This document shows, piece by piece, positions 5,387 to 60,191 of a DNA stretch of 64,000 bases. Each line of letters begins with the position of its first letter. The first letter of the stretch is position 1. The translations under genes and the position numbers were made by a program. The stretch comes from Tubulanus polymorphus. Taxonomy: Eukaryota; Nemertea; Palaeonemertea; Tubulaniformes; Tubulanidae. A model generated the notes under the pieces. The model did no database searches. It was given only the letters and a program-made list of their open reading frames with translations, and had not been told where the DNA came from. The DNA lies in NCBI RefSeq assembly GCF_964204645.1, contig NC_134029.1, positions 3,977,001 through 4,041,000 of the forward strand, read 5' to 3'.

Positions 5387-5486
5387 TTTCTGTTTCACTC
5401 CGCGAGAACTACTGCTATAAACAGAACTCGAATAAACTGGTTTAAACCGGCTGGCAGTGGAGTAGCGTCGTGAAATTGTTTGCAAG

Positions 5487-16388: not shown

Positions 16389-17016
16389 GGGATATCTGTG
16401 CTGACATTAAAATTATAAATAAATTTTATCTAATAAGAATCCGCTCAGATTCTAATTTTTTAAGATATTTAATCAATCCTTTACAACAAATTTAATTTTA
16501 AACCAAGACTATGTATATTGAGTAGTATTATTTTTCTTGTAAAACGGTTTGTTTTTTATGCCCAGTATTTTTTCAATAAAGCATATTTATTTAAATTTTC
16601 AATAAAGTTTTATTTGACCCCATTTTTCAGATTTTCTCAAATTGTGACGTCTAAATTATTAACCTGGGTAAATATCAGAGGTAAGCTCTTATCTATATTA
16701 GAATAAATTTGAAAGTGTAATTGAATTATAAGAAAAAATACATTTGGAAGGACTTTTTGGCACTTTCTTTCCAGTTGTACCCCAATTTTCTTCCAATCCA
16801 TCTTAACTCGAGTAACTCTACTAGGGAGGTCTCTATTCTGTCTCTGGATCTGGTCAGCTGGTTGGTAGTACGGTAGATCCCCAGCTTGGCTAGGTTCACA
16901 TTGCCAAATTTTTCCATAGCCTAGTTGAATTAACACTGTGTATTGCTTTTCATATTTTCATTTCATTCATACGCTCTTCACTTAGAGACTAAATATTAGA
17001 ATCCAATTGCTGAAAC
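16389..17016. other. Upstream region of the WHAMM/JMY gene
   Basis: AT-rich sequence that should hold the promoter and 5' UTR of the gene starting at 17017. No TATA box or GC box is convincing. Open frames on the minus strand (16637-16936) have no family resemblance. Confidence 0.35.
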
Positions 17017-20000: not shown

Positions 20001-20906
20001 ATCTTCATATTTTTTTTTTATTTTCAGAAATATCCTAATCGTAATCCTCTGCATCCATCAAGGTATTCATCGAAATCTCAAAAAAGAAGATCATCGGATA
20101 AACCAGACGGAACTGATCGTACAGATGGCACCACGAGTCAGACTAAAAATACTCCCGTACCTCCAGAAACAGTACCTAGTAGTAAACCAGGTGCCCCTGT
20201 CCCCCCTCCACTTGCCCCTCTCGGGCTCATGCCTCCAGTTGTACCACCACCCCCTCCCCCACCTCCCATTGCTCCTCCCCCACCACCAGCGCCACCAGTC
20301 CCTCCAGCTAATCTTCCATTGAAAAAGACCGACGATGTTAAAAAGACTGGTCGTGCTGCGGAGTCTAAAAATACTGATCAAATGATCAATCTATCGGATA
20401 TACAATCAGCTAGGACTAAACTGAAGAAATCAACAGAACCTGTTCATACTGGTCCATCAAAAGGTTTGCATATTATCATTTAGTTAATGAATCTTTTAGG
20501 GGTTCATTGATTATTGTGTTTGAATTACCGATTTAAACCCGTTCTATATATAAACGATCTTAAGCACTGTGGATAGTCCCCTCCCCCGAGGATGCACACT
20601 TCACGAGTGACCAGCCTTTCATCTGTCATGAAATGGTTTTCGATATTATTGATAGATGGCGTATTTGTAGGTGAAGATCCGATGTCTAACATGATGCTAC
20701 TGATACGACAAGGTGTGAAATTACGACGCGTAGTTACCCCTGCTGCTGCTGATGGCGACAGTCCATCGATGACGTTATCAACTCCTAGTGAAAGTCACCT
20801 ACAACATTTACAACAGGCTTTAGGCCGTATACAGAAACTTACTGCTTCATTTTCCGATGATGAGGAAGACTCCAGCGAATTCACTGATCAAGATTTTGAG
20901 GATTGA
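17017..20906 (+). CDS. WHAMM/JMY-family actin nucleation-promoting factor
   Basis: Activates the Arp2/3 complex and nucleates actin, in vertebrates on ER-Golgi and autophagic membranes (WHAMM) or in motility and p53 response (JMY). Eight exons: 17017-17927, 18402-18492, 18566-18731, 19059-19228, 19546-19632, 19715-19810, 20028-20463, 20671-20906; total 2193 nt = 730 aa. The ATG has good context (GAAACATGG). N-terminal family domain: EDWVAVKEHPF and IAWNEIEQKIAITC (residues 8-42), then GLFTFRDLQGIHDQLC. A long coiled coil spans about 300-510. A proline-rich stretch lies at 561-600. WH2 motifs lie at about 626-643 (INLSDIQSARTKLKK) and 657-673 (MSNMMLLIRQGVKLRRV). A connector helix (HLQHLQQALGRIQKL) and acidic tail (SDDEEDSSEF) finish the protein. 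The usual Arp2/3-binding tryptophan near the end is a phenylalanine (F728). Donor of exon 4 (CAG|GTCTGG) is weak, so that boundary is the least certain. Two WH2 motifs resemble WHAMM, and the sequence fits both vertebrate paralogues. Confidence 0.93.
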
Positions 20907-21663: not shown

Positions 21664-21735
21664 TGCGTTCGCCGGGAATCGAACCCGGATCCATTGCTTG
21701 GAAGGCAACGATGCTAACCTTTACACCACGAACGC
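21664..21735 (-). tRNA. tRNA-Gly(TCC), copy 1
   Basis: 72-nt cloverleaf on the minus strand. Acceptor GCGTTCG pairs with CGAACGC, with A as discriminator (21664). Anticodon stem GTTGC/GCAAT encloses loop CTTCCAA, giving anticodon TCC. The T loop is the standard TTCGATT. A T6 run shortly downstream (minus strand) is a good Pol III terminator. The sequence is identical to the tRNA at 37463-37534. Confidence 0.97.
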
Positions 21736-28288: not shown

Positions 28289-31200
28289 TTACGATAAAGT
28301 CTGTCCGGGGAAGAATCGTTGGAAATGATCTATATGCTCTTTCGCTTTGATTCGTAAAGCCGCTATACTCGTGTTACGGGGATCGTGTTCATCGAATTTG
28401 ATCGAATTCGGCGACGGGAGTGATCCGAGTCCGCCTGCCGCGATGTAGGGGGGATATGTACCGGGTGAGAAGAATGCTGGAATTGACGGATGGGCTGCAG
28501 TGCTTATGATCGGTGACGTCATCCACGGGTCTAACGGTAAGGCCCCGGTTAAACCGTTACTAGTCGCACAACGAGGTGACAACACACCCATCGGAAAGTT
28601 CTCGTTTATTTTCAACGAACTGCATTCCATTTTCTCCTGTCGGCGCCATTTTGCCCGACGATTTTGAAACCAAACCTACAAGATAAAAAGAATTTGACGC
28701 TTGAAAAATCTTTTCAAAGAAGATTCTTAAACTCCATTTCAAAAACCTGAAGATGAAGTCATGTATTACATCAATATTGGGATCCGATGTTTGAAGTATC
28801 TTTATTTGTGGATTCAACAATAAGTGGATAATGATGATGAGTTGAGTTTTAAGACGATCATCGCTCGGGGGAATTTCATTAAATGATCACGCTTTGGTGC
28901 ACAATTCAACCGAATAAGTTCCATCCCTTCACGAGTCGTTGTACTGCCAGGTGTCATAGTCGTGACCTTTATACGCAGAAGACATGGCGTTCAATAAAGC
29001 CGACAATTACCGACAAATGATCTCCGAAATTATCTCCGTTAACCCGTCAATTCAGGCCCGTTAATGGGCGCCCGTCTTTTCATTACGAATAAAAGCATCG
29101 ACTACAAAACTGTAGAGTGTACCCGGAATCAATTTTGACTCTCGGGATAATTAGGCGAGGCGGCAACAAATGGATGAAAGATTAAAGACAATTTGGCGCT
29201 AACCAAAATGATTGCAGCTTCACAGAACGCGGATAAGATCAGTAAATTGTAACCGGGTTTCAATGGCGACAATTTTAAATCATGTTCGTTGTACTTTTAC
29301 GGCCAGTGTTGAAGAGATGCATCTGTTCTCTAACAAAGAACGCAGCGTGTGGGTTCGTGAATGGGTTCTTTTCTGTTGGAAAATTAAAATTAACTTAAAT
29401 TCAGACGACACGCTGAAAACCACGGTTCCAAGCCTAATAATAATAATGATAACAGATTCTCGTACTACTCTCGTGGAGTTCTAATATTCCTGTGCAATTC
29501 TCAAACTCCAGTGGAGGGTGATTAGCCCGAAATTAGAATCTTGATTCGTCTTACCTGTACTCTCACTTCTGGCAACTGAACTTTGTTCGCTAGCTCTTCT
29601 CGACTGTACACGTCTGGATAGTGAGATTTCTCAAAAGCTCGTTCCAACTCGTGTAGTTGATACGTGGTAAATGTTGTCCGATTTCGGCGATGTTTTTTCT
29701 TCTGTTGTTGATCGGTTGTGTTCGAGTTATTCGTTAATGAGCAATCGGAATGGTCGCTTTCGCGATCTTTCTCATCTGTAATGAAAGAATAGATAAAAAA
29801 TCAGTGATTAGATTTATAGATTTGGGCAAAGTACAACATGGTCTTATCATACATGGGATATTATTGGAAGAGCACATTAGCTTAAATGCGGTCTCTGAAA
29901 CACATGTTTGAGTCCATGGTTTAAGGTACGAGGACTTTCTAAACAAAAACTGCGAAATTGACCAGTACAGTTCCGACCTCCGTGACTTTCGTGGTGAAAT
30001 AGAGAATTGAGAAATCGACATAGATCCGATTTTACTCGTTTCATTCGGGATTCATCGGTCATAAGTCAGCGCAAATAAAACGAATCCCCTTACGGTATTA
30101 CCGTAGCGCATTTCAGGCACAATAAAGCATTTATGGTAATCTTCTTCGGTAAATTACTTTACCGCGCACTGAGTCCATTACGTTATTACGGTCCTCCTCG
30201 CTCCTAAACTGCAACCGTCATCCGTCTTAGATTTGAACAGGTCGCTAGTATGACAGTATGCGCTGCAGCGTTTAAGCGGCTTTGCTTCTGTCGTTACCAG
30301 TTAATGAGGTGTCGAGGTGTTTAATGCGGCAACCTTGATGATTTGTGAATCATATTTGTTGGGTTTTCTGATCGTGAACGCTAATATCTCGTGTCATGAC
30401 CCCCCGGGGATCTACGAAGACGTTCTGTCAAACTGACAAATGTGTTTTACTTATTAATTCGCGATTTCATTTTATCAACATCTAATGCGGGGATGATTTA
30501 ATCAAACCAAATGGACGCGAGCTCCCGCGGGATTTGCCTTTTTAGATCCGGAATTTAGTTGATGGGTTTTTGTTGTTTCGCAGAATCAGAGAAGAGACAA
30601 GTCGTTCTCTGAAGACTCATCGAGTGGGATGACCTTAAGTGGCTTAAAAGTGAGAAGTCCTCTATGTGTCCTCATCCTCGTGAGGTTGAAAAAAGAGTCC
30701 ATCTCTCGTCGGAAAATTTCTTTCGAGTACCTCATGTGATCTCATTGACAAACTCTTTATGATGTGTTTATTGATCGATTCGACAATAAAAATACATTCT
30801 TAAAAACCAAAATAAATTAGATAGTTTATTAATGACGCTGTCCGTGGTGTGTATGAACAAGACTCTTTCAAGAAAAACTGTTGGAGGTGGCCATGCATTG
30901 CACATTCGTCCTTTTATTGCTCGTCAAACAAAGCGTGGCCCATCGTATATCAAACGACTATATGAAATTCAAATGCAAAAACTAACGACATGTTTTGCCG
31001 AAAGAAAGAGCAGTGTTTGAAACGAGGTGCCCTCCTGCAAAGTACGATTGCGATTTTCAGAGCCTTATTCGCCATTTTCACAAAAAACATTTGTATTGAT
31101 ATGTGCTTGTATTGTGGTGAAGCGAGCGGCAGTTGGATACACGCTGGGTACTTCGTTGTCATCGCTGAGGACCCGTTTCATTTTTTAGGCCGCGGAAAAA

Positions 31201-34200: not shown

Positions 34201-36047
34201 TTTTTGAATTTGCATGCTTTGTTCCGCCGGTTTTTTTTGACTGATGGTAAATTGTGTAAGATCATTTTCCAGTTTGTATACATGTGATGAATAAAATAAA
34301 TCTATTGTGTACTATACTAATAAAACTTGATGAAATGCCACCTCCCTGAAATACGTACTAGATTAAATCAATGATTATGAACATCGTTTGTTATCTGCAA
34401 CTAAGGGATGATCACTTTAAGTTAGAAATAGTTCTTCGTATGAAAGATTCGTAGAATATACAGAGACTTTTTTAACCGGTCTTCCGCAAGGTTCATTCAT
34501 GAACTCTAGAACGGTTCGGAGTCTAAGATTCATTCTCTAGTCCAACTTCCCCCAAGTTACTTTAGTACATGTAGCTATTCCCACTATAGTCAGCGAAAGA
34601 CAGTGTTTAATAAATGAATTAGTTAATTGTAACGAACAATAAGTAATGTATACGACATTAATTGGACGCTTGTGAGAATCTACAGTTTCTAATGATTAGC
34701 CTTGGTCGTTTTAATTCGCATGAACGACTATAAACAGTCAGTGCGAGCTCTTAAATCGAAAACGATTGGTTAAATAATTAATAACCGTACGTCCTAATTG
34801 ATTATCGGAGCAATAACGACACAACATATATTGACAATTCCGAAACATCAAATCGAGATGGTAAAATATGTCGAATACGATGCATATATACTGGATATAC
34901 CCATGCCAGTCTCTTTTGAACTTTGAATCCAAGAAATTCGTGTTATTCAAAATTGAATGACTCGAGTGCCAAAATCAATTCTCATTCTGCTACCGTTACA
35001 AATCTCATCTCTGCAAATGCTATTCTGCTTATAACTATCATTTATACATAGCTTCCTTTTATTTCATCATAGAGTTGGTTTATTCTGCATTTTTTCCAAT
35101 TTTGATATTCGTGATAGCTAATTTCTGCTGCCCAGTCGTGAAACATACATCGTCTGTGTGCCACGTGTGTCGTCTTGTGTCTAGTAGATTAAAATCTAAT
35201 TCATTGTGTCGAATTGCTTGGTGGTTTTACAGATCAAATTATGATATCAGGCGATTAAATATCAATAAATTTCCGTTATTTCTGTTGCAGTAGATCAGGT
35301 TTCGGAAAGGAATTAAAGAGAATGTAAGCTGTGAATTCATTCTGTCAAATGAGTTCTGTGTCTGGGGCGTGGATGCGGGTGAAATCACAAAGGTTGACAA
35401 CCAATTTTCAGGTCCTCAGGATTTTTAGCCGTAACACCGATTAATTTGTTTCGACGATGCAATGGTCTGATAACCAGGACCACTGTTAAACAGGGCGACC
35501 GAGGACTGGATAGTTTTTTCTTTAGAGCAGAAACCATGTCTACCCGTGAATCGTAGTCATGGTTATGCTTCTGTTTTCATCAATGGAATTTGAGCCTCTT
35601 CAGTAAAAGTATTTCTAACAAACTAAAACCCATTGAATGCGAGAATGACAAGAAGGTTTTCGGGGTATTTTGTTTTCAAAGAAATTAGGGTTCAAAACAT
35701 GAACAAACGTTGTTTGGACAGCGATACTTACATATATTTGGGTCTCCTGCACTGGGGCTACCACTCCTGTATCTTGTCTTCGGTGACGCCTGCATTTGTT
35801 TCCATTTCTGCTCGGAGATTTCTTCTTCTAGACGCATTGGTTCCTGGCGTTGAACAACTGGCGATATTCCGGGGTTCGAGCCTAATCTGTCTTTGAGTCC
35901 GAGTATAACATCGATCGAATGCGAGGGACTAGTTTTACCCCCTCCACCGCCGGAAGTGTTCGTTTCCTGAAAGCTCGGTCCAGATTTTGTCGGTTCATTA
36001 TTGTAGTTACACCTCGTATCAGAGCTATTTCCCGAGTCGCAATGCAT
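28289..36047 (-). CDS. rx: Retinal homeobox transcription factor Rx/Rax
   Basis: Paired-like homeodomain regulator of eye-field and anterior brain development. Exons 35732-36047, 29555-29775 and 28289-28675 (924 nt, 307 aa) join in phases 1 and 0. The ATG is at 36047-36045; the in-frame codon two positions earlier is GTG. Exon 1 has the octapeptide HSIDVILG (residues 43-50). The homeodomain (134-193) begins [20 protein letters not shown], carries Q50 (Q183) and is split by intron 2 between homeodomain positions 46 and 47, the ancient paired-like position. Flanks KKK before it and RRQEK after it, with [10 protein letters not shown] and PEVRVQ inside, are diagnostic of Rx. The OAR motif [17 protein letters not shown] ends near residue 295. 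Introns are 5956 and 879 nt. The gene is head to head with hbn. Acidic/poly-Gly exon 1 is otherwise low complexity. Confidence 0.95.
29776..35731 (-). other. Large intron 1 of rx
   Basis: 5956-nt intron between the octapeptide exon and the homeodomain exon. No coding sequence is recognised. A promoter-like cluster of ETS and opposed CCAAT motifs sits at 32437-32489 (separate entry). Large introns of developmental homeobox genes often hold enhancers, but none can be demonstrated here. Confidence 0.7.
32437..32489. promoter_or_regulatory. Promoter-like ETS + two opposed CCAAT motifs within the rx intron
   Basis: CCGGAAGT (32437-32444) is a consensus ETS site; ATTGG (32463-32467) and CCAAT (32485-32489) are two NF-Y boxes in opposite orientation 22 nt apart; TCATGTGAT follows at 32511-32519. 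The arrangement is typical of TATA-less promoters, so an alternative rx promoter or an intronic transcript start is possible. It could also be an enhancer or chance. Confidence 0.35.
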
Positions 36048-36250
36048 TGTCACTTACACTGAAAATCCGTACAAAATCCACTATTTCTACCTGTTATACG
36101 TTCTACGCGTGAAGTTCAGCAAAGATCACCACCAAATTTCCGTCGCAGTATTCACTGATAAATCGGCAAAAATTAATCTGAAGTAGCTGCAAACCTCTTG
36201 AAAATCACTTGAAGTAGTTTCCCATACGTCAGTGGCGATAGTTAACATGG

Positions 36251-36333
36251 TTTATATACACAATAAGAACGGCTATTTGCCGGTAAGCTCAGGTAACGAG
36301 AGGGGCGGGACCGGCGGGCGCTCGCCGACCAAT
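36251..36333 (-). promoter_or_regulatory. rx core promoter candidate (TATA, GC box, CCAAT)
   Basis: Reading the minus strand, TATATAAA occupies 36258-36251, about 205 nt upstream of the rx ATG. Further upstream are a GC box GGGGCGGGA (plus strand, 36302-36310) and a CCAAT on the plus strand at 36329-36333. The GC-rich patch stands out from AT-rich surroundings. A T-rich acceptor-like TTTTCAG just before the ATG would also permit a 5' UTR intron. Confidence 0.5.
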
Positions 36334-37462
36334 AAGCTCGTTATACCGCCGTTACTTGATGGGCTCATAAGCGTGAGTTGGTTTGCATTAAAGAACTCGC
36401 AATAAGAAACATATTAAATGCCTAATGGGGCAAACTGTAACTGAATAGAACAAGCAACTCGGTATAGTTAACCGTAGACAATAGCTGGGTATGTCGTGGG
36501 TCGCTAATACCATTAATGTTTAAAGCCAAACATCGCCCAATATTAGAAATGATTGTAGTCGATTTGAATCACTGATTATCCGTACACCATGGCTTCTATC
36601 TATTTGTGACCTTACCAACAATTTACTCCCTGAAAATCGCTTAACTTCACGTTTAGTTTGTTCAGAAAAGTTGAATTTACCAAACTAATCGAAAGTAAGA
36701 AAAATCCGTAGGATTTAGTTTTTTGATCAGCGAACACATGGACATTTTGAGTCCATTAAAGGATCTTTTCAAAAGCAAATGCAATATGGACACATTGCTA
36801 TTGTGGTGGTTGGGTGCGGAGTCTGGGTATATGAAAACTGATAGGTAAATTCATATGACAGCGCAGATAATACTTGGGTGTCCACAATATCACTTGGACA
36901 GGCTGGGCGAGATAGTCGAACGAGATAAAGTGCGCGAATGAATACTTCCCTAAAAGCGTCGCGTTGAAGATAACATCGAATCCAGTCTTTCTTTTCAAAT
37001 AATTTGCGCTACTGTCGATTTAATTACGGTTCAGTATTGTAACGAAGCGATGGTCTCCACCATTTTCTATCTCGGTCTTGTCGCGTTCTAATTGGCGACT
37101 AATTATTTGGTTCGTGCACGGCGCAGACCAGTCTTTTGTACGAGTTAGCGATGGAACTACGACAATATTCAACTGTTTCTCTGTCGGTGTAAACTGTCAA
37201 TCAATAGTCGTTAAAGTGCGACAGATACGATGTGCCTAATTGAAAGTTAAAAAATAAATTCAACCACACCATTGTGCCTTCAAATATCGTTAAAACCGCG
37301 TAACGATTCTTTTGCATTATGCAGTGTTGATACGAAAGATATTCTATTTACAGATCGATTTTTCTCATCATAGATACTGAGTGAAAATCTGACAATGTCA
37401 TCAAAATATTGGTCAAAGCAATTCTGAGGAAGTCGACCCTCATTTCAAGCGGTAAAAATCTG

Positions 37463-37534
37463 TGCGTTCGCCGGGAATCGAACCCGGATCCATTGCTTGG
37501 AAGGCAACGATGCTAACCTTTACACCACGAACGC
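37463..37534 (-). tRNA. tRNA-Gly(TCC), copy 2
   Basis: Base-for-base identical to the tRNA at 21664-21735, with the same acceptor pair GCGTTCG/CGAACGC, anticodon loop CTTCCAA and discriminator A. It has its own downstream T5 terminator. A few flanking bases on each side (CAG after the 3' end, AACTG before the 5' end on the minus strand) are also shared with copy 1. It lies inside the rx-hbn intergenic interval. Confidence 0.97.
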
Positions 37535-37818
37535 CAGTTGTCGCGCTGACTGTGTTTGACAGATCAGATTTTATGGAGCTATACGTCGCGCTCTTACACG
37601 AAAGGCCAATCACGCGGGAATATTTGAGTTCTTGAGCGAACTTTAAAACCATCGTGTTCAATTTGATATGATGGTTTTTATGACCGCGTACCGTTCGGAG
37701 GATTTCTCAGTCGAAACTTGGTTTGATATAATCTGTTGGTTACGTTTTACTCGAGACTCGAAATTAGTTCTTTTTTCAATGATTAAGTATTGAATGAAAT
37801 ATCTACCCACAGATAGAG

Positions 37819-37954
37819 ACCTGGGGCCGGTTGCATAGTAATGACTTAGATTTAAGACCAACTTAGTTCTATAGCCAATCTAGCAACTTAAGACCAGTCT
37901 TAAGATTTAAGACCACTTTTGGACTTAAGTCACGACCGTGCAACTGGCACCTGG
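37819..37954. mobile_element. MITE-like element with GGCCGGTTGCA termini
   Basis: Imperfect terminal inverted repeats: GGCCGGTTGCATAG at the left (from 37825) and its approximate complement CCGTGCAACTGGC at the right (to 37948). Short CTTAAG/TTAAGAC palindromic motifs recur inside. The hexamer ACCTGG flanks both ends (37819-37824 and 37949-37954) and may be a target-site duplication. Non-coding, about 124 nt between flanks. Elements with this sort of terminus are common in marine invertebrate genomes. Confidence 0.6.
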
Positions 37955-39394
37955 TTCCAGTTCAACAGATCCGATTTAGAGTTAGATTTACTCTATTTTC
38001 AATGAGTAAACCCCGAGTCAAACCTTTACTCAAAACTGGGCAAAGAGTGTTCTCGGGAAAACCTTTCGTTTTCGACATTTGTTCCAGTAGTTGATTTTGA
38101 TTTTAGTTGAAAGATCGCCACACGAAAACAACATGTGAGGTTCATGAGTCGTCATTTCCACAAATATCTACCGGACTCGGTCTGTAATTATGTGATTAAT
38201 ACTGTCAGGTGAAATTACAGTACGCACCACGTCGTCAGTCATTATAAGATATATATTTACTTCAAAAACTGTCCCCACGAGACCGAACCCAGCAGGTGAA
38301 TAAATTAATTCATTAATTTGTTTGCAAGAAATGATTTAGGTTTCACGGTTTGGTTAGCGTCAGTGGCTAGAAGCGAATATCCCAGACCACACGACGGGTG
38401 ACCACCGATTATACTACGGGTAATGCATAATATACACACTGCAAACTCTATCATCGATGTCGTTGAAATTGCGTAAAATCCTCTTGTGGTCGCGAAACAA
38501 AATTCCAACTGGGAATTTCACGATACTAAGAATTATACAAAATATGTGATAACATGTCTCCTCCGCGAACACGCCTACGATATCAAATGAAAACCTCATA
38601 CCGTATGATCATTTTTATTTAATTGGGAAATTCTCTCTCAAGAGCGTGACTACCGTATCTTCTAGATGTGCCGAATACTCTGAATCGCTCATGGTGGCCG
38701 AATAGCTCATTATTTGAACATTAGTTGTTGTCGGAATTTTAGTTCAACTTAAATCTACAAATATGCCACCATTTACAGAATTCGTCGTTATTCATTCGTC
38801 AAAAAAGCCCGAGCCTCTAGAGACAGATTACCAACTAAATTGGCGCCAATAAGAGGATAAAAGTCTACTCTCAAGAAACGACCAGCAAAATATTGTATCA
38901 CGGAAATCCCCGGAGGCGCTTCACCGAATTTATTAATCTAAAAATTGACAGATTCTTTACAAAGGTTATAACGATATGAAATGAGAAAACCTGGCCCGGA
39001 GCTATGTTTATAGGTTTCAAGAAGCTATAGCATTCTAGGGGTATAGGCTACGACGACACAATCACACTCGTGAAATCTACGTACGTGTTTTATTCGAGAA
39101 TAACAGATTTCCACAATGAAACTTATTTGTGAAGCGCAGCGTGTTGCCTCCGCGTTTTCATTATCCCACCTACAAGTTTAGTATTATCTTACTGAAAAAA
39201 ATATAGTCGAAACATTCATCGGGCGTTCGTCCATTTTTCGGTTGTAAAAATATAGGCCGTTATTTCTTTAACCTTTGTCAACTTGAGCTTTTTTAGTATT
39301 CTCGACCCGATTTCCAATTAAGGAACATGTAGGTGTTGGATGGATACGTCACATGAGCACATTTTTGTTTGGTTGTCGACTGACGTAAACATCA

Positions 39395-39555
39395 GGGCTG
39401 GGTTTCATAGATGTGGAAGAAAAATAGTCCCTGGGAACATTTTGAAATTTGTCCGTTATAACCATGGTTTCTCATTGTTACTATGGTGGTTGTCACCCAG
39501 ATTGAGGATTTACCCCTAGGGATAACTTTGATACCCAGTCTATGAAACTGGGCCC
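39395..39555. mobile_element. MITE-like element with GGGCYSRGTTTCATAGA termini
   Basis: About 161 nt bounded by inverted repeats: GGGCTGGGTTTCATAGA on the left and, reading inward from the right, GGGCCCAGTTTCATAGA (14 of 17 identical). The inside is non-coding with further short dyads such as CCCTGGGAAC and CCCCTAGGGAT. No clear target-site duplication is visible. A non-autonomous DNA transposon is the best reading. Confidence 0.65.
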
Positions 39556-39731
39556 AGATATGGAAGATTTACAGAGACTAGTCAGTACGAATGATTGCTT
39601 CTGTTCATTAAATCAATGCAAGCAATATGATTTTGTCAAACGATCGTATCGTAATCAGTTTAAAACCCACTATAAACAAAATTCAAATGATTAAAAACGA
39701 ATCGCATTTGTCAAGCGTTAAAATCAAATTT

Positions 39732-39768
39732 CCCGACGTTTCGAACTCTCACTAGAGATCATCGTCAG
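39732..39768 (-). ncRNA. Hammerhead-ribozyme-like motif, Penelope-type retroelement remnant
   Basis: On the minus strand CTGACGA (39768-39762) fits the hammerhead CUGANGA box. It is followed by a short stem-loop ATCTC-TAGT-GAGAG and then CGAAACGTC, which fits GAAA plus a GUC-type site. Penelope-like retroelements are known to carry such minimal hammerheads in their terminal repeats. No reverse transcriptase or GIY-YIG domain is nearby, so this would be a solo remnant. Bulged bases at the foot of stem II make activity doubtful. Confidence 0.4.
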
Positions 39769-40753
39769 GTGAGATGGTAAAACTAGTGACGAGGGGTACA
39801 TATACAGTGGGAAACAAATTTAATTGGTAAATATCTGAGTGAGTAGTAATTAGCGGGTAGCTGCAGTGTATATTTTGCCGTAAATTGATAAGAATATAGT
39901 TCCGGAGCCTTTTCATAGATGTCGCTGGTGTATAAGCTCTCGCGGCGCGCTCCTCAAATGAATTAGATTTAGCGTGTATAACGCCGACGGTTATTCTAAA
40001 CTAATGCCTTGTTCGAGTGACATCCCGCATTTTCTCGTGACTAACGAATCGTGAATATCGTTCGATTAAATCTTTATTTTCAATAGAAACTGAAATTAGC
40101 TCCAACGAAATTACACTGGCTTAGCAAAAACGAGTTTTCTGTAAGCGAATAAATTTCGACGGCCCGATAATTACTAGGGAGGGATAGACTTTTTATACCG
40201 GTTTGCTGGTTTAAAGAAACTCTGGCGCCACAAACTTTTGGCGAATTATCAACAATGAAACGATATATTGACGCTAAACTTTCGTCTTTAAATACCGAAA
40301 CAAATAGTTGGTATTTCCTTACTCTTAATTCGCTATCAAAATAACGCCATATTCGTTGAAATACGCGAATAGCTGCTTTTTCCATTCACAAGTAACAAAT
40401 GGATATTCAAATGAAAGAGATATTTGATGCAGTAGTTAACAATACTTTGGCAAATAGAAAACATTATTTGGTGATGGGTACCGTTTGTGTCTCGTATCGT
40501 TATCGTAGGAGCGTCCGATTCACATCTGCCTTTTCATACATGCATAAAGAAAAGAACCACCGTGAACTGAATCATAAATATCACCGACTCAACGGGATCA
40601 GATCAGATGGGTGTGTCCAGCGACAGAAGAAAATAACTGAAAATGGTAAATTGATATTTACAGATTCAATCATTTCATTTATCTGTGCATCAAGTTGAAT
40701 AGGGTCTGTATTCAATGTAAAGGCTGGTGAAAATGAATGTGTATGAACGTTTC

Positions 40754-41110
40754 GGCTTTTAAGGTCATAAGTTATATCTAAACTTCGCCAGTTGTCCAGT
40801 GTCTTAATTTACAATATCTTGTATTTCCTTGTCATTGTAGATTAATTCGTAAATGAAATATGTATAAAATTGTCCAGCTTCATTTTTACCCCAATAATTC
40901 GAACTATACGTAGTTCGAACAACGCAGAAAAACTATAGCAATATATTGCAACTTGTGTGAAGAATTGTCATGAATTGCGAGAATATGTGGGCTTTTGGGC
41001 CTTTGGTTTATAAAAGTTATCTTCTAACTTCACCAGTTATCCAGCATTTTATTCCTTCGACTTCTCTCGGTAAATTGATTCGTAAATAAAACGTATACAT
41101 ATTCTAGTAT
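40754..41110. repeat. Degenerate direct repeat, about 235-nt period
   Basis: Two diverged copies begin near 40754 and 40989. Shared blocks in the same order include GGCTTTT, AACTTC(G/A)CCAGTT(G/A)TCCAG and GATTCGTAAAT(G/A)AAA followed by a CGTATA-like end. An old tandem duplication in rx-hbn intergenic DNA; no coding content. Confidence 0.55.
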
Positions 41111-47100: not shown

Positions 47101-50100
47101 CAAGATCGATACGGCTCCCAGTTCTCTCAGACTGGGGAGTATAATCCTGTCTCTCTCACGGTATCGATGGCACGCATTCCGAGAGCGCTTAGGCCGCAAA
47201 CGGTAGTCAGAAAAGCGAGGCCCCGCGCGTTACGAATACACGTGTTATACCATATCAGGATCAAACGCCTTTGCAGTATCGACGAAAATAGCGCGCCGTC
47301 TGCGATTGTTGGCATAAATGGATACTTCGATTTTGCTCTCGACTCACAATGGAATCGATGCAGGAATTAGATATCAGATAAACCTGATCAAATATAGTGG
47401 TTAAATCGACAGCGATTCCTCAATCTCTCTCGCGACACGACACAAATCGATCAGGTCTATATTAATAGCGAATTATATAATGTTTCTATTTATCGTTTGT
47501 GTGATTCCTCTCCACGTGATATCGGATCATTTCGTGTTTACCCACATTCGACGAGCGGCGCTTCATTAGTCACCATTGTCGTCGGGGATTTTGTTCCCAA
47601 TGAAAATTGTGGCAGTTTAAATTGCATTTACTGCCGTTATTATAAACACGTTTGTTCGTACGTTTGAATATATACATACGTGTACGTGCTGATATCTATT
47701 TATTCGTACTATATCAGAGAATCCACCCGTATTCCATCCGTAATAATTCATTACCATGAAACATAATTAATACCTATGGCGCGTACTTTTGAATACACTC
47801 CCTCGCAAATGAACATCTGAAATCACAAAAGATCTTCATCCATACGCGTCTGCCACGAGTCCTATGAAACACTCAATTGCAATATTTAACCCAATTTCAA
47901 ATCGTGTTGGTCAATACGAAGTTTGTGACCTTCCTATCATGGTTTAATGATTTGAATTTTTACCGAAAAAAAATACGAAATGAAATAATTTTTCCAATCT
48001 ACACAAAAGTGTTTATACAGCTTTGTGTAAACAGAAAAAGAATCGAAACCAATTGAAACGAAACCGTGGAAACCCCGAAATTTCCAGAAAATAGCCACGG
48101 GCGTCGCCATCGGCTATCTTCACGATTTCTGAGATTCATTATTGGAAACAAAATATACCACTGATGGCGTGTATTTCATGTATCGTTAAATTCATTACCT
48201 AATCCACGTAATTCAACTAAAACGTTTATTTGTCGGCCATTGAAATTCGAATACCCCTTAATAAGCGGTATTATAGTGACTTTAAGATGATAATCTGTAC
48301 ACAATGCGTCCTATTACACGACACTCTAAGACGTTTTCCAAATCTATTCAATGTCTACGGGTTTGATAATTATTTCACCTGTTTTTACAAATTCGAGATT
48401 TAAATTAACCGATAATCGTATCGGGCCGAGTTTGTTGAATTATATAAGTCACTACAGGGAGCGAGGACCCCTATAGTTTTTACATATTGTTGACCATTGA
48501 TATCTGTTAAATCTCTACCATATTTTCTTTAACCTAATGTTCGTGTTGCCGCCTGTTCATGATTCTTGTTTTGACCGTGGCTAAGCGATCAGCATTTCCT
48601 CGCTTCCCAGTGTGGGTGTCGGTGACGCTATTACGCGGACGGACTATTAGTATTGAAACAAACTATCATTAGTCAATTTTATCGAAATCTAAAGGTGACA
48701 CTTTCAGCAGCACTTTCGGCAGCCTGAGGTCTCCACAGTGACAAAGAAGCTTATTGACGATTCGCACGTCGATTGTGGATCCTTTTTATTTTTTGTTTCT
48801 TTGTCAAAAGTGTTCTACCTACGACGAGTTTACTGATCTGTACATAATAATCACGGGAAAAAACGCGACGTACTTTTTCGGTCAATAGACATTAAAGAGA
48901 GTGTATACCGAATATTGCCAGGAATCATCACAGAACACACCAATAAAGCTCCGTCATCTTTGGTACGTTGCTTCCTCTCCGTATCTTCAATATCCGCCAA
49001 CTCAGGCTCTATCGGATGCATCGGCAAGCAGAGTCGGAAATGTACATTCTTCCCTCTAATGTAAACAATGCGGAATTTAATTAAAGGTCTTCTAACCGAA
49101 TATAAAGTCAGTTAATCTTAACGTACGGCTTTGATCGTTAATCGTGTTCGCTCGTCGTCTGACGAGAGATGCGGATTGTAAATATACATTCCATAACGAC
49201 ACAGCAGACACAAGTGCAGCCAGCAACATTAATTAAATTCCCATCAACTCGGCTTTAATCTAATGCGTACAAACGACACATCAAATTGAAATACGATGTT
49301 TGAGGTAGACGCCGGGATAAAAAAATGGAGCATTTATTTTTCCATAGCTTATCATCGATCAATTTCCGCTATGAATTTGTATTATTTCTAAATGACTCAG
49401 TAATTAAACGATATGTGGTCCCTAACCTCACCAAATTTATAGCCATCTGGCTCGGCCAAAAACGGGATTGTTGAAACCACTGGAGGAAAACTGATCAAAA
49501 ATGTTTCAAAACCCCGTTATAAAGTCAGATCCCTCGAAATATTAGATGAATTGCTTTTGAAATGATGTGGCAGATCGTATGTAGAGCAGTTGGTAACATA
49601 TACTATGATAGAACAGGTGAACAGGTGAATTTCAGTGGGTTTATTGTACAACAGGTGCTTTATTCAATAGAAACGACCCCCGTGAGTCTAACATGAGCGT
49701 GCGGTCAAAATCTTAATAATGCGTTTGTGATGATGGTTTTGAATATCAAATGACCAGTCGGGGTCACTAACCTAACTGACCGATTTAAATATGGTGGTCG
49801 ATGTTCCTTAAATCGGTCAATGCGCCACTGTGCAACAGATGCTCCAGTAGAACACCCTATTGTGTCTTAGAATACTGATGTCGAAGGACATGAATAAACG
49901 AACAATTGAAATGAAATATGGCAAGGCAAACCAGCTGGTGAAATTTTTTTCAGTTCATAAAAGTATGTTATGAGTACACTATTGAATAAATGTATACGAA
50001 CAGTTCCGAGGTAACTTAGATAAATTCTGGGTGACAAAGAGTTGGCAGAGGCTAATTGTTGTGATTGCGGTTACAGCTCAATCTGTTAGAAAGATTATCG

Positions 50101-53100
50101 AAATTTCAGACACTTTTCACGTATTTAAACTGAGTTTAAGTATCATTAACATCTTCGTGTTTCGGAGTAATTTTCCGAGTTCGAAAACCATAAACGAGTG
50201 TGATCAAAACCCATTACGAAAACATCAATTTCCCTCGTTGAATCCCTTAGTGACAAAACACTGCCTTATCGTCGTTTCATTGGACAAAATCCTTCCGAAT
50301 ACAGATTAGACGATTTGTAATAGATAAAATCTGCGTGATCCAAACAAAATTATAAGCGCTTATCGTCTTCGAGACAAAATAGACATCGAAAACAATACAA
50401 GATTAAATATAATCCATGAAATATGTTACGTAAGTCATATATGAAATACAAGATTCGTGAAATTTCATTCGTGCCCAAATATGATAATAGAGCGATTGGT
50501 TTGAGCGCGAGCCTGCCGTATGGTCCGTTCAGTGAACTATTCACAGGCTGCCGTAGCAACAAAAAATATTAATGCGAGTTCTCAGTTAATCTCTCTGAAT
50601 CTAATCTGTTGAAGATGATGTTATGATTTGTGCGGTGTCATTGAAAGCCATACGGGCTGCAGGCCATGGTGGTGTTTGTATTGTTTCTTTGAGAATTCTG
50701 TTATAATTCAAGTTTTGTCGCCTTAGTCATGATGATTGATATAGTACATTGTAACGCGTCACGGATAACATCACGGACAGATAGATAGATCATGTAGATA
50801 TCCATCTATAACGCGCACGTTCCTATGATGACAGCCTTTATTTTGCGAACTTCACCACATTCGAATAAAACTTTTGAAAATTCTGCCCGCTAACTTATAT
50901 CCCACCAATTCCGAACGTAGAACATACGATTAGTAGTTTGACGGAAACTTTGTCATTGCGCTGAAAAAATGGCTCAATCGATTCTCAATTCATTAGTGAA
51001 ACGGAGACTCTTCACAACTCTATACAAATCTTGTCGTAGGTATCTAATCAATTCTCGAATATATTTCTCATGAAATGATTCAGATAACGCATTCCAAATT
51101 CTGTATCGCAGATCCGGTGTGCTTGAGAGGGTCGCATTGTATAAACGATAATATCGTTAGTAACTAATAAACCAGTATTGTGTTCATAATCAGGTTTATT
51201 AAGGGGTGAAACTATGACCAACGAAAGATTATCCCTTGTAAACAAGTACACTTGTTCAATGAATGAGCGGACACGAAAAATTCCAGCAAAGGCGTTTAAT
51301 TGTTTTGATTAGAAAATTGTATAAGCTCATATTTCTATAGAAGAACTCCCTATTAATTTCATCCGATTTAGATTACGTTTGTTTACAGTCTATATTCGCA
51401 GTGACGCTTATTTTGTGTAAATTCTTGCATGTATGGTTGTGTGAAATCTGTTGATAACGTAATGAAAAATTATCCCGACAATGAGCTACAGGTCACGGAT
51501 GCATCCAGTTCCGCACTTGAGAATTTAGATTCAACTTGAGCTGATTGAAAATGGAAACTAATACTCAAATTACAGTATAACCATTTTGTTTAGATTTCCA
51601 TTGCGATTTACAACCCAACCACATTTCTTCTTCTTCTTCCGATATCTGTCAACATCAACATTTAACAGGAACCCGACCAAAATCTAAAACACCGTTGCAC
51701 TCTGATGATACAAATTTTTTTTTAGTTATAAGCACGTTTGTCGTTCCTCGCGCACTGAAGCAGTATTATCAGAATATAGCAGAATTATCGGGAATGAGAA
51801 ATAATAGATATGTACCTGGTGCGATCACGAGTTTCCGCGACATTGTATAGATGATGTAAAGGTTAAACGATGGAGGAGACGGCTTCATAATAGATTTCCC
51901 GGAGTTGAATTTAAGTTTCATTTGAACAATAGAATCGACACACGGTTTCGTTAAAGACACGTGATGAATTTCAGGCACCATTCTCATATCATGATGTGTC
52001 TGTTTTTGACATGTTTTCACTGTAAAATGATTCCTAATTGAATTATATTCAGGTCCAAGTATTAATTGAAAGGATGACAGATTTTGCTGACACAACCACT
52101 GATGACACAACCGCCCATATTAAAGGCATCTTAAGGCGTGGCAACTAAGATATAATGATGATATCTATTTGTTGCGAGTGCTGTTATAAGTAAATTAATA
52201 TTGATATATCAAATTCCATCGTGGACACAAAAGACTTTTAAGTAGTGAAGTAAAGGGGTTAGATCCCCCCCCCCCCTGTAAGACTCGTGTTTGGAGACAT
52301 GTGTCCATAAACTAGTTCAAACTCGAAGCTGGCTCTTTTCAACTTGGTATCAATCTGGACCGTCGATTTAATCAGGTAAACCTCCCCGATCTTATCAACA
52401 CAACGACCTTTAATTTTTCTCAATGATGAGTTTTCCGTGCTGACGGGTAATGACAAGAAAACAGCGCGCCTTGTCGCCGTTATTTTCTGTTTGCCGGTTT
52501 GAAAAAAAATCCAACCCAGAAAGAAATCTAATATTGATTTCATTACCGGGAAGCCGCATTTCAATGGGTGATTCGATCAGAATAAATAGTCGGCCATCTT
52601 TTGTGCGGCGTACGAGTGTATTTAAAATTAGTATAAAAACGTATCGAATTGCCTTTCAATTATATCCTTGTCAACTTTATACGCATTCACCGAGTTTTCT
52701 AAGGCGAATATATTGCGACAATAGTAAAAAGCTTATTATAACTTCTTTCGATTGGTAGCGACATAATAAGATCATATCTAGTATAAAGCGTTTGCAAATT
52801 GACATATACGTGGTACTTTGTGACTCTGAAATCAGCTATTGAACGCTTTTGTAGGAATGTCTATTTTGTTGTATGATTACATAGTATTCACAGGTGTTTT
52901 TTCTACATAATGACCACGCTCTTCAGTTTGGAAATAATTTTATAGGAATACCGTCTTTTATTATTCGCGAATGGGCTTCTTGTGAATGCTTACAGTGGCC
53001 AATATGAACTGGCTATTGTACACATCGACAGTGCTTTGGGGTTTAGGTCTGTTCTCCAAATAGGATAACCATGAAGAGGTCCTCCGATAATAGACCTAAA

Positions 53101-53914
53101 CGTCAATCACCTTAAGTGGCTTTTGTTGGTAAGAAATTACTCCTGAATTTGTATTACATATCTTTTCAAGTTGATAATAGCTGCCTTTTGACACGCCAAA
53201 AACTCGTCCGCGGCTTCAGTTGAGTTGTTCTTAAAGAAGCTGCCGAGTGCACCCCGAAGTTTGGACGAAAACTCCCATTTAATCAATTCATCATCACTGT
53301 GTATAGCGAGTTTAGATAGTCGCAACTCGCTCGGGGGTTCGTATCAAGGACTGTGGTTGGATTTAAATCCTGCTTATGATTTTAGCCAGAATCTAAGGAT
53401 AATTTGCTGGGTGGGGAGCCCTATTGAAAACGGTCACAATACTTCATTTATAACTGTAGCGAGCCTCTAGGCCGATTAAGTCCTAAGTAGCTTTATAATT
53501 CAAATAATATAGCTTTTCAACGCTAATTATATAAACTATTATCCAGTGTCCTCTATACCGTAATTTTCAATTTTCCGCTTAGTTTTGTTTGTATGGGAAT
53601 GGCGTCCGGGTTGAAGGAGATGGAATCTTTCTTGATTCGGGAATTTTTTTCATAGACAGCTGTTCATTCGGTTTCTAATGATAGGTTTGACGTGAAATGG
53701 AAAAAAATTGTGGTTTCCGGCAACGGATCACTTTTTATCAACGGATTAACTACGCTGGTCATTCACCAGGGAGCCACTTTGACCTTGACATTGTCAACCT
53801 TTTCAACGTCATTGGTTTCACTGTCATCATCAGTTTCCTTTTTTCACATTTTAGACCTTATTTTGATACTGCAAAAGTGCATTGGGAGATTTAGATTTTC
53901 TAACCTCTGATTGC

Positions 53915-54240
53915 TTCACGTGAGGCAGTTTAACCCCAAGACCCTTCACAATGTTCCCATAGAAAATATAATACCAGAAGCAATAAAAATTAAGCAATAT
54001 TTGGTAAAAAGGTATAAGGAATGCATCTTATCGTCTTATTGTTAACCGTATAGGGGCACTGATAACGAAGCAATATTTGCAAAAAGGGCATGAGCGATGC
54101 ATTTTCTTCACGCGAGACAACTTAGGCACCAAGATCGACAGAGGCAGAGGAAATACAAACCAGAGGCAATAAAAAAAAGGTTACGTACAATAAAAGCAAT
54201 ATTGGTAATATGAAAGTAATCGTCTTTATCAGTCAATGTT
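53915..54240. repeat. Degenerate direct repeat upstream of hbn, about 190-nt period
   Basis: Copies start at about 53915 and 54107 with TTCACG(T/C)GAG(G/A)CA and share ACCAGA(A/G)GCAATAAAAA and AGCAATATT(T)GGTAA further on. An extra partial GAAGCAATATTTG unit lies at about 54067. It sits 250-600 nt upstream of the hbn TATA motif, so it may be a duplicated regulatory element or plain decayed tandem DNA. Confidence 0.5.
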
Positions 54241-54506
54241 AATGTGTTGTGGTTTTTTTTCGTAGGAGTTATTCACGGGTAACGTGGATGCGTTTTCTCG
54301 GTTTACTGGCGTACAGTTAATATCCGTGCAATTATCGTTAATCACCGCATATCGAACGCCGTAATTACAGTTAATCGTGACGCGAAACGACGACCAGCAG
54401 ATCGAACGTCGAAACCACGCCTTCGACGCTTTGTACGTTAGAAGCGGCGTTTATCATCTAGCTAATACAGCGACATGTCGCGAACGCGATCATAACGAGC
54501 TTTTGT

Positions 54507-54591
54507 CCAATGAGCGCGCGACATTTCATCGGCCAATCAGTTAGCGCAGCGCGATTGGTAATGTCGGTCCAAACAAACATTCGATTATAAA
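54507..54591 (+). promoter_or_regulatory. hbn: hbn core promoter candidate: three CCAAT boxes and a TATA box
   Basis: CCAAT at 54507-54511 and 54533-54537, reversed CCAAT (ATTGG) at 54554-54558, and TATAAA at 54586-54591, within a GC-richer patch. The TATA motif is 195 nt before the hbn ATG (54786). The 20-26 nt spacing of the CCAAT boxes suits cooperative NF-Y binding. Transcription start is inferred, not seen. Confidence 0.55.
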
Positions 54592-54596
54592 CTCGG

Positions 54597-54613
54597 ATTA
54601 TTGTTACAATAAT
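54597..54613. promoter_or_regulatory. 17-nt perfect dyad resembling a paired SOX site
   Basis: ATTATTGT and ACAATAAT are exact inverted copies around a single central T, giving two opposed ATTGT/ACAAT cores, the core bound by SOX HMG proteins. It lies just downstream of the hbn TATA motif, within the probable 5' UTR or initiator region. Confidence 0.5.
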
Positions 54614-54785
54614 GACTATTTAACGGGAATTGACGCCAGCGATCGCCACATATCTTTTTCGGACGTCGAAAAGACCAAATCACGGATTACTTAGCTCTCA
54701 TACTTAAGCGCACCGAAGAACTATCTCGCATATTATATCCATCACATCTGACTGTGCACGGGTGGTAAACTATCCAAAACGGAAA

Positions 54786-57700
54786 ATGATGACAGAACGA
54801 CCGCTGCAAACCTCAATTCAGGGAAAGTCGAAATCGTACAGCATTGATAGCATATTGGGCAACATTAGATCGGATAGGAATCCGGACCCACCGTCCCCAG
54901 TTCGTTCACCGTTAGGATCGGAACACTGTTCTCGTGGTAAGTTACCGTTCGACCGAATAGTTTTATATTTTCATAACTTGTTAAGAAATACATATGGCAC
55001 GAACTTGATATCATTTCGCTCACAAATCTGATTGAATTAAGCACTGAACTATCTTAGATTGAATTCTCTTTCAAATTAGTTGTTGTAATTTAGAATTAAT
55101 TTCGTTAATACTAACGCAGCGTTCTGCTATAGTTTCAGTGATTTTAGCATTTTCTATTTTCACTTCCGCACAGTTTTAATACATCATATTCAACCTGAAA
55201 ATGAAGTTTGTCTGGTCGTCTACACGTATGCCATGATTTATCAAATATCAATACGACATGGTTATATCTGAGCTCTGTGGCCGAGTGAGAAATGTTAATT
55301 TGTTTGTTCTCTTCTTCCCTCGACGAGTGTACACTCAGATGATCATAAAACCATTTCGGGTTGAATGCTAAGAAATAAGGAGTTTCTCTTGTCATTAAAC
55401 GTCGTTAATTTTCCTTGGTTCGTTTGACTATAATGGACACAACAAACTGGATGAAACATAGTCCATTCTGTCCATGGTTCAGACCAGTGCAATAACAAAA
55501 TCGTCGTTTATATTAATGCGATCATCTTTATGGTTCACATCGCGTCAGATGGACCCCGCTTTCAAATCGTAATCTGCCGATTATACTAATACCCGATGAC
55601 CAGTAAACTATAAGCTCGAACCGGTGATACCAGCCGCGTATCCTACCCCCACATAAATCTCTCCTCATCCGGTCGGCTCAATTAAAAATCGGAAGTAATT
55701 TGCGGCGCAGTAAGAATTACTAATCTAACTAATTATCTATAATACAGTTCGCAATGGGTGTGGTTGACTGTTTCCGTATCGGGACATTGTGTGGCTCGAT
55801 TACTTTTGAAATAGACAGATTATCCCCACGAGTTTACGACATTTTCACCAGAAATAATAACCTAGGAAATGAACTATAGTTCTTACGCTTCTTTCGTCAC
55901 CTAAAATGAGCTATTACAATATTGGTTTCATCTCTTCGTTAATTCTTTCCATGTATAGGATAATGAATAGGTTCTCTATAACACCTTTGTAATCATCTTC
56001 GTATAAACGACCGCTTTTTAAAGTTTACGCATTGTTAGCTTTTGACGTGTCATTTAAGTCATTATTTGATAGGAATGAAAATCATTATAAGAATACCACC
56101 CCCATCTATATGTGCTCTGTCGTTAATTCTTGTAGACCAATGAATAATTTACAATAGATAATGTCACCGTATATTTGGTTTTATTACCGGTATAAATATT
56201 CACAAAACCTTTATTTCGGAGACTTTTTAGCATTAAGGTCTACTACTTAGTTTGAAATTGCGCTGACTAAAACTATAGATGTAAAAACTCACAACCTGTT
56301 TAAGATACTGTATCGCTGCTTAAGACAAATTGTAACAATTTCCTGAATTTAATTCAAATTCCTTTACATCGTTCGATCGTGAGAGTATTGTTTCTCAAGT
56401 TACGCATTTACTGATAGTCCCAGCGTTTATACAGCGGTAAAATATCATTATCCGTGGTGGCTGCAGTTTAAAGGTTGTTCTTGGTTATCTTTTTCAGACG
56501 TTATCCAGGACACCCCGTCTCCCAGATCGCCGCATAGCGAAATCAACGATTCACTGGACTCGATCAAATCTGGAGATGACGGTCACATGGTCGAAAACCG
56601 AGATTGCTCGCTGATGAACGGCGCCGACAATGCGATAAACAACAACAATAACAACGATAGCGGTGAATTATCGGATGGAGGAATGGGAGGCGATAAACCG
56701 AGAAAGATTCGCCGCAGTCGAACGACGTTCACCACGTACCAGTTACACCAGCTAGAACGAGCTTTCGAGAAGACGCAGTATCCTGACGTGTTCACACGGG
56801 AGGAACTTGCGATGAGACTTGATCTTAGTGAAGCTAGAGTTCAGGTAAATATTCAACATTGCCTGATTTTCTTGTCTTTCGCACATCTACTGAAGTGTGT
56901 TCCACACGTATACAGAGGTTCATAGATGCTTAGGTACTTTTTCGAATAAGAGTTGGACACTGATCTGCGTTTATTGTGTATGCGATAAAACACATCTTTT
57001 TCTCAGAAAAGTCGGTCTGTTCAATTTGTCTGAAGTCGAATGTAAGATTAACGATTCATGAGCTTCACACACAGAAATTAGCGCATTTTGTTTCGTAGAC
57101 AATGAGCACCTAATATACACTTTCATTGGTAATGCTTAGAAGAACCAACTTACGTAGGTTTCTAAATCTAATTCATCCGCCTATCCTACTAAATCAAATA
57201 TTCAACAGTCTATTTGAAATGTATTCAAAATGTGTATAATATGCAGTTTCCGTGGATTAGACAACTGATATTTCGCATAAGTCTCATTTGAAAACCGCTT
57301 TGATGTATAATCACTCACCTGTGAATCATTAATGAACACAAGCGGGTCAAACGTGCTCGTAAGAATAACCACTAGATTTCCGCATCTTTAAATTCAAACT
57401 ACTTAAATTCGTCGAAATTAATAGGTTTCATCATCAGCTTAAACAAACGGTTTGTGACTTCTCATCTGATACGAGCTATTGTCCGGAATTTGCCGACGTT
57501 CTCGCGTTCGGCTTAGTGTCATGGTAATGAACATCGAATGGATTTCGTCGACAGCTCGTGAATCGCTTAATTAGCCATTCAAATTAATCGATATCGTTAA
57601 CGATAACGATTGTATGTGTAATCAGATCCGTGCCAGCAGCTGATTGTCGCCGCATCGTACTCGTTGAGATACATATGCAGAAGGTCTCTACCACAGAACG

Positions 57701-60191
57701 ACCCTATTTTCAAGGAGTGAAATTTATTTCGAGCTTGCAATCGAAATATACGCCCTCATAAGTAAAAAGGCTAAAAAATGATACACACTCTCTCATTTCT
57801 GTCCTGAGCATTTAAGTTGACCCGGCCGGCAGCCTGTCTACCTTCTCTAAACTATGATCAGGCTTGCCGTAACAGACCCGCCAACTTCAGAAATGAATTG
57901 ATTACAAATTGTATTGCGGTTTAGAAAATGACCTGGTCAATTATGAGAAACAAGGTATCATTTTTAGCAAAAAATTGATGATGTTTTTTAAAACTCAACA
58001 TAGAGCTGAAAACGGAGTTCTTGATTTGCGTATATGTTTCGATCGAAGAATGTTATATAATAATACCGGCAAATCTTCAATATAGCATCGATCAGAACTC
58101 AGATTTCATAAAATTGCTTTCATGGCCCTGATTCATTTCTAACGGTTCTCGTTTATTCCTGATTTCAACATTCCACTACAAGGGGAAACAAAATGCACTT
58201 TATTTTTGATTATCTTTGACGTTAAGCACGAACTCGCTACGGGTTGGAAATGGAGTAGATGTAAAAATTCAAACAATAGACAACACATTGGAAGACAATC
58301 TGTCGGGAAATTGCTAATTTAACCTGCAATTTATATATTCAGAAAAACGTCATATTCGACGATTTATTACTTGTTATTCAAACAATCAGCTTGTCGTGTA
58401 GGCATATATATAGATACGACACGTTTGTTAAGACAAACACAAATACGTTAATTAGTGGCCAATTTACAATTCTGCCCCATTAATGAGTCGATGTAACCGA
58501 ACAAGTATTTCTCCTTGCGCGGATCATTATACCCAGATTCATGAATAAATTGCTGCCGCATTATTTAATGAAAATATTGTTCAAACATAATTCAAAGCGT
58601 CGAATCATACATAGTCGATTTTATTCAAAACTATATTTGTATATGCGCACATGAAATCAGACGATTACAATTAATTAATTTTATAAATTCTATCGGGTAT
58701 CATTTATCATAGCATTGAACTTTTAACGTCAGATGGACCATAGTCATTTAAATCATAGATGTTAAACTAGATTAAACGTCCATGTTTGAATACAGCAACA
58801 CCCATTCAAAAGGTTTGTTGTAAAAAAAACCGTGAAATCGTTTTAGTTGAAGTAAACACGAAATATAGTAAATTTGATATGTAGATAAGACCTTATATAA
58901 GATACAAAAATCAAATTAGCAAAGCAAAGCAAAGTGCCGTCATCTTAGGTTTGGCAGACATCTTGGTTTTTTTTCAGATACGCCTCTCTCTCATCTCTCG
59001 ATGCGAACGACAATGTGCAATAAAAACCGACTTAAACTGTTACTTCCGAATGTCTGCTCAGAATCACGTGCTTGTCGCATGGATATGAGGCTCGGTTGTA
59101 TCTCACTGTCAGCACAAACTTTCACCGTTCGCTGCAATAATTGGCGAAGCTTGTAGTCTTCGGGGCAAAATTCCACTATTGGCTCTTGTCAGCTAATAAA
59201 GAGCAATAAAAGACCGTTTACCCAATTCACAGGAGCACGACGTCAAAGAAGGCAATATAAGCGGGAACAAACATCGCAGATAAAAGCTCCCCTCCAGTTA
59301 CAACAAATTTGATTCTCGGTGATTAAACAATAAAACAATTCGTGCTACTAATTGAAATATAAGAAGCGTTCGGTTTTTGTCATTCGAGGCGTTTTCAATA
59401 ATGATTCTCCTTTTGCGACATCCAACTCCTGGAATGTCAACACTTCCTGTACGATACAATATTAATGTTTCAATATTGAGTCATTCGGCAATTACATTTT
59501 ATTCACTGTTTTGTCATTTTTGGACAAATTGCAAATGAGATGTCGTTCTTTCCTTTTTTGAGGTAATAAGCTAGAATTTGTTCACTAATAATAACAAAAT
59601 TTTAATGTCAGCCTTTCAATTTTTGTTTTGCAGGTTTGGTTTCAAAATAGACGCGCTAAATGGCGAAAGCGCGAGAAAGCCCTCGGCCGCGAAAGTCCAA
59701 GTTTCATGCACGGAGATCACATGCCACCGATGTCGGAACTGCCCCATATGATGGGCCATTTACCGATTCCGCTAGGTGGCGATCCTCTCTGGGCGGCGAG
59801 AATGCAGAATCTTACCGGACTAAATCCGCTTTTAGCGCTTCAACACGGAGGTCTATCAGGAATGGCAGCAGCGCATTACGCTGGTCAGGGTAAACTACCA
59901 TTCGGTGGACTGACATTACCACCAGGTTACCTGCCGGGCTTCCCGACCGGTATCCCAGCTTCATTTATACACGCCAATAACACGGCCATCAGTGCAGCGT
60001 CGACAAACTCTCCTCTAAATCTCGTCAGTTCGAGATTTCCGCTAGAGGGCGCTGGCTTCGACGTGCGGAAGTCCAGTATAGACGCTTTACGAATGAAAGC
60101 GCAAGAACACGCGGCCGCTGCATTCGACCATCAAAAACAGTCGTCAACCAGCAAATCAGCAGCAGTTCAACAGGAATCGGCAAAATCATAG
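54786..60191 (+). CDS. hbn: Homeobrain paired-like homeodomain transcription factor
   Basis: Anterior neural regulator of the PRD class. Exons 54786-54936, 56498-56844 and 59634-60191 (1056 nt, 351 aa) join in phases 1 and 0. Two ATGs in tandem open the frame (54786, 54789); a longer frame begins with GTG. Octapeptide YSIDSILG at residues 18-25. A polar linker with a six-Asn run (98-103) follows. The homeodomain (121-180) begins [20 protein letters not shown] and continues [21 protein letters not shown]50 is Q170 and intron 2 splits it at position 46/47, as in rx. KPRK before and [11 protein letters not shown] after match homeobrain better than Arx or Alx. The C-terminal half is Gly/Pro/Leu-rich, and an OAR-like motif [16 protein letters not shown] is at about 313-328. 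Introns are 1561 and 2789 nt. Arx is the main alternative, but the [15 protein letters not shown] block favours hbn. Confidence 0.92.
54937..56497 (+). other. Intron 1 of hbn
   Basis: 1561 nt, donor GTAAGT, acceptor TTATCTTTTTCAG. No coding sequence or RNA gene is recognised inside. Confidence 0.85.
56845..59633 (+). other. Intron 2 of hbn (splits the homeodomain)
   Basis: 2789 nt, donor GTAAAT, acceptor TTTGTTTTGCAG. It lies between homeodomain positions 46 and 47. The short open frame on its minus strand at 58991-59176 has no support. Confidence 0.85.

Follow-up and report, generated by a model that had tools for sequence, protein, structure and literature searches.

The locus analysed here is almost certainly the homeobrain-rx-orthopedia (HRO) cluster of a lophotrochozoan. 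As a cluster it is of a known kind, a typical lophotrochozoan HRO with the limpet-type order and ordinary for its kind, and the part that deserves most attention is a fourth PRD-class gene, here called X, inside it.

Gene content and order of the cluster

The window, i.e., the whole analysed stretch of 64,000 nucleotides (C5:3977001-4041000), comes from a host genome of 267.8 Mb in 77 contigs. The genes follow one another on contig C5 as rx(-), hbn(+), X(+) and otp(+), and the genome-wide homeodomain scan (matches above the Pfam cut-off) returned four PRD homeodomains in this single run. The chance of finding four PRD homeodomains within ~69 kb is ~1e-6 by a crude estimate that assumes random placement of ~28 of them in 267.8 Mb. 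The head-to-head rx(-)/hbn(+) pair reported in the preliminary description was confirmed, with start codons 18,738 bp apart. Its attribution to the known HRO linkage also held, as rx, hbn and otp lie together on one gap-free contig in about 77 kb, counted between the stop codons of rx and otp. As otp is absent from the window, the description had left two explanations, a position beyond 64000 or departure from the cluster; the first proved right and the second did not, for the same contig carries otp about 34 kb beyond the edge of the window, transcribed in the same direction as hbn. The search to the right of the window, proposed in the same description, thus yielded otp and also X, which lay outside its view. 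The sequence count gave 0 N in the 114 kb from the window start to C5:4091000, and otp is present in this interval at the expected place, so an assembly artefact behind the linkage was ruled out.

The Hox genes, from labial to Post2, are located on C6 and include Lox5-, Lox4- and Lox2-type homeodomains; judging from Hox signatures, we take this Lox5/Lox4/Lox2/Post2-type set to be lophotrochozoan. The looser linkage of HRO with Isl is present as well, with an Isl-type (LIM) homeodomain at C5:21.39 Mb, on the same contig and 17 Mb apart.

Table 1. Features of the HRO locus and its neighbourhood (positions without prefix are those of the window; C5 marks contig positions)
Feature	Position	Strand	Remarks
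JMY-like gene	17014..20906	+	adjoins rx, convergent with rx; conserved-synteny neighbour
rx exon 3	28289..28675	-	homeodomain 47-60, OAR (PF03826), stop
rx exon 2	29555..29775	-	homeodomain residues 1-46
rx exon 1	35732..36047	-	ATG at 36047, octapeptide HSIDVILG; open frame, donor GTAAGT, phase 1
rx-hbn divergent gap	36048..54785	.	18,738 bp, ATG to ATG; 0 N
tRNA-Gly (TCC)	37462..37534	-	inside the rx-hbn gap
hbn exon 1	54786..54936	+	octapeptide YSIDSILG
hbn exon 2	56498..56844	+	homeodomain residues 1-46
hbn exon 3	59634..60191	+	homeodomain 47-60, SPLNL motif, OAR (PF03826), stop
X exons	C5:4044966-4045086, 4045196-4045458, 4047805-4048320	+	canonical splice sites, no internal stop
otp homeodomain exon	C5:4074801-4075081	+	homeodomain
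otp last exon	C5:4081460-4081984	+	otp tail RGTSIASLRRKALEH, OAR

Identification of rx, hbn and otp

The phylogenetic analysis was performed on the PRD homeodomains of the host genome together with reference homeodomains, and support is given as SH-aLRT/UFBoot. The same references served for the tree and for all identities; a search of papers for printed copies of these sequences found none.

Both genes of the divergent pair gave complete three-exon models with canonical splice sites (rx, 307 aa; hbn, 351 aa), each with a phase 1 intron after exon 1 and a phase 0 intron at homeodomain position 46/47. The octapeptide, OAR and 46/47 intron that the preliminary description had assigned to both were therefore recovered in the gene models and by PF03826. 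The rx homeodomain is identical to the RAX reference at 59 of 61 positions and groups with RAX (94/99); as the gene also carries the octapeptide and an OAR (PF03826, 1.1e-8), it has the features expected of an Rx/Rax member.

The hbn homeodomain shares 58/61 residues with Drosophila Hbn, 53/61 with ARX and 46/61 with ALX4, and it forms a clade with Drosophila Hbn (96.6/99), i.e., it groups with Homeobrain over Arx or Alx. Moreover, the genome has Arx/al-type genes at C10:10.28 Mb and C9:14.71 Mb and an Alx-type gene at C11:4.19 Mb, all separate from hbn, and for these reasons the placement of the plus-strand gene with Arx or Alx, which the preliminary description had considered, was ruled out.

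The otp gene spans C5:4074801-4081984, and its homeodomain exon begins about 37.6 kb from the hbn stop. Its homeodomain matches the OTP reference at 59/61 positions and groups with OTP (94.6/99), and the Orthopedia homeodomain, the KKRKKTTNVFRTPG tail and the OAR are all found on the same contig.

Comparison with known HRO clusters

The cluster resembles most that of Lottia gigantea described by Mazza et al. (2010) (PMC2938728) in the otp-hbn-rx order, the opposite strands of hbn and rx and a similar hbn-rx spacing; however, a fourth PRD gene lies between hbn and otp here, with about 37.6 kb separating the hbn stop from the otp homeodomain exon, whereas the text of that paper mentions no such gene in Lottia. 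According to Mazza et al., the Lottia order arose by an inversion in the lineage of the lophotrochozoans (PMC2938728). The hbn-rx spacing also resembles that of the fly (about 17 kb), Lottia and the urchin (about 22 kb) (PMC2938728). The same three genes occur in Drosophila, Apis, Tribolium and Lepidoptera as hbn-rx-otp, with rx central there and hbn central here. The spider order (Rax-Hbn-Otp, PMC10726417) is the one found here; however, it has been interpreted as an independent rearrangement in which orientations also changed.

The fourth PRD-class gene

Gene X (C5:4044966-4048320, plus strand), the fourth intact PRD-class gene of the cluster, is located between hbn and otp, starts 3.97 kb to the right of the window end and is single-copy in the host genome. 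It encodes a protein of 299 aa with the octapeptide FSMDRILG and a homeodomain with the expected core residues as well as Gln50, and its introns are in phase 1 and phase 0, matching those of rx and hbn. Neither the gene model nor the OAR search revealed an OAR in X, whereas rx, hbn and otp are all OAR-positive.

The homeodomain of X shares 44/61 residues with RAX, 41/61 with hbn as the next family and 40/61 with ARX, and the ML tree placed it as sister to Rax (81.7/92). However, the AU test rejected no alternative, and its confidence set keeps all nine placements, with rx, hbn, Arx, Alx, otp, Phox, Prrx, Hesx and Drgx. Outside the homeodomain the similarity is to hbn, with shuffle P values of 0.008 for the C-terminus and 0.048 for the N-terminus and with SPLNL common to both proteins, while the similarity of the flanks to those of rx and of otp was not significant in the shuffle test. 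The comparison with solved structures returned generic PRD matches only. The likeliest origin of X is tandem duplication of rx or hbn followed by divergence.

PRD clades specific to lophotrochozoans (I-VIII) have been described (PMC5322547, PMC6118893). X, compared with them by description, is likewise a lophotrochozoan PRD gene, and one that is hard to place; the clade VI motif SPQQVRS is absent from it. In Biomphalaria, the HRO clusters contain one additional PRD gene, Arx-a, as is the case here (compared by description only), and the authors leave its occurrence elsewhere open (PMC8848322); these were the only further four-gene HRO clusters found in the open-access literature. That X is this Arx-a, and hence an old spiralian fourth member, is an unlikely reading. 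It would agree with the presence of X as a fourth PRD gene within an HRO cluster, with the Arx placement kept by the AU test (0.43) and with the best match of X among host genes beyond the cluster, the Arx-like gene at C10:10.28 (54% over 75 aa), on account of which pipelines could label X Arx-like. However, the ML tree and the identities lean to Rx rather than ARX, and no further homeobox gene was observed in Capitella at distances of up to 40 kb from hbn (PMC2938728). We consider still less probable the broader proposal that part of the lophotrochozoans have a four-gene HRO, in which a fast-evolving, OAR-less PRD gene derived from rx or hbn was added between hbn and otp, was kept and corresponds to Arx-a.

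The rx-hbn gap and the maintenance of linkage

The Pfam scan of ten of the longer ORFs of the rx-hbn gap gave no matches, and a protein gene in the gap was rejected on this basis. Clustered homeodomain sites were rejected as well, as their counts equal those of dinucleotide shuffles and show no enrichment. A search of the region for duplicated regulatory blocks turned up just one 37-bp match besides the tRNA-Gly copy; the two tRNA-Gly (TCC) genes, at 21663-21735 and 37462-37534, are 97.8% alike over 89 bp. With a tRNA-Gly, no Pfam match in the ten ORFs and sites at shuffle level, the gap sequence by itself does not point to a block of enhancers shared by the two genes.

Judging from its relatives, each HRO gene would encode a homeodomain transcription factor that acts in patterning of the anterior brain or in neurosecretory patterning. 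Interleaved regulatory DNA of several HRO genes may lie in the introns and in the long non-coding gaps, an arrangement that would make breakpoints costly and keep the genes together. There is about an even chance that the linkage results mainly from such interleaving, an explanation that does not require one enhancer set common to rx and hbn, possible as such a set is.

The strong form of the preliminary description would have bidirectional enhancers in the 18.7 kb gap control rx and hbn jointly. In its favour are the head-to-head arrangement and the length of the gap, whose scanned ORFs show no recognisable protein domain; however, Nematostella expresses the three genes in territories that do not overlap and has hbn and rx tail-to-tail (PMC2938728), and separable local enhancers, within or adjoining the hbn locus, reproduce the hbn pattern in Drosophila (PMC8728971). 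Joint control by the gap is improbable, and because of two of these observations, the local fly enhancers and the non-overlapping expression in Nematostella, interleaved private regulatory DNA is preferred over a shared set.

The main rival to interleaved regulation is inertia, by which the genes would have stayed linked with neither shared nor interleaved regulation. It draws on the same sufficiency of the fly's local hbn enhancers and on the lack of motif enrichment in the gap, as well as on the uneven fate of the cluster, which is intact in one and broken in the other of two close relatives, B. glabrata vs B. straminea (PMC8848322), and has its genes dispersed in a sea spider (PMC12220506). 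The tight linkage retained in cnidarians, insects, spiders and molluscs (PMC2938728, PMC10726417, PMC9977156) argues against it, and we regard inertia as somewhat unlikely, and interleaved regulatory DNA as the preferred explanation.

Surroundings and other homeobox loci

The first ORF of the JMY-like gene (17014-17931) matches PF15871 (3.2e-36) and PF15920 (4.6e-25), while the ORFs at 19968-20906 have no Pfam match and owe their assignment to JMY solely to their position and to a stretch rich in proline. Provided that the gene extends to 20906, about 7 kb separate JMY from rx. JMY, SCAMP, AP3B1 and TBCA are neighbours of vertebrate OTP. The sole matches in the genome to SCAMP (3.60 Mb), AP3B1_C (3.59 Mb) and TBCA (1.73 Mb) are all located on C5, which under random placement has a probability of about 8e-4. 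In amphioxus, SCAMP and a tubulin chaperone are found between otp and rx (PMC2938728). The window also contains a tandem pair of minus-strand MFS genes (3386-5500 and 10384-12768), which are monocarboxylate-transporter-like and resemble each other.

Several other groupings of homeobox genes were observed in the genome. Gsx-type and Cdx-type ParaHox homeodomains are 20 kb apart (C5:5588362-5608787), 1.6 Mb from HRO. Gsc-type (C1:29552238) and Otx-type (C1:29571848) homeodomains are ~20 kb apart, on a different chromosome from HRO, and this pair is left over from the PRD/LIM mega-cluster that has been proposed. Three Vsx-type homeodomains are located within 33 kb (C1:10438346-10470776), and a Shox-type and an Arx/aristaless-type gene are separated by about 21 kb (C9:14690836-14714585). 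The Arx-like homeodomain on C10 (10283397-10283567) is uninterrupted at 46/47, with no OAR match on C10, and may be a retrocopy or else a paralog that has diverged.

Significance of the locus

The locus supplies a gap-free lophotrochozoan HRO cluster with the limpet-type order. The JMY-SCAMP-AP3B1-TBCA neighbourhood ties it to the vertebrate OTP region and would ease the tracing of hbn loss and rx separation in chordates. Gene X provides a second kind of case for the question raised by the Biomphalaria authors about additional PRD genes in HRO clusters, and if it is an old member, the gene content of the cluster and the idea of a 'frozen trio' would need revising.
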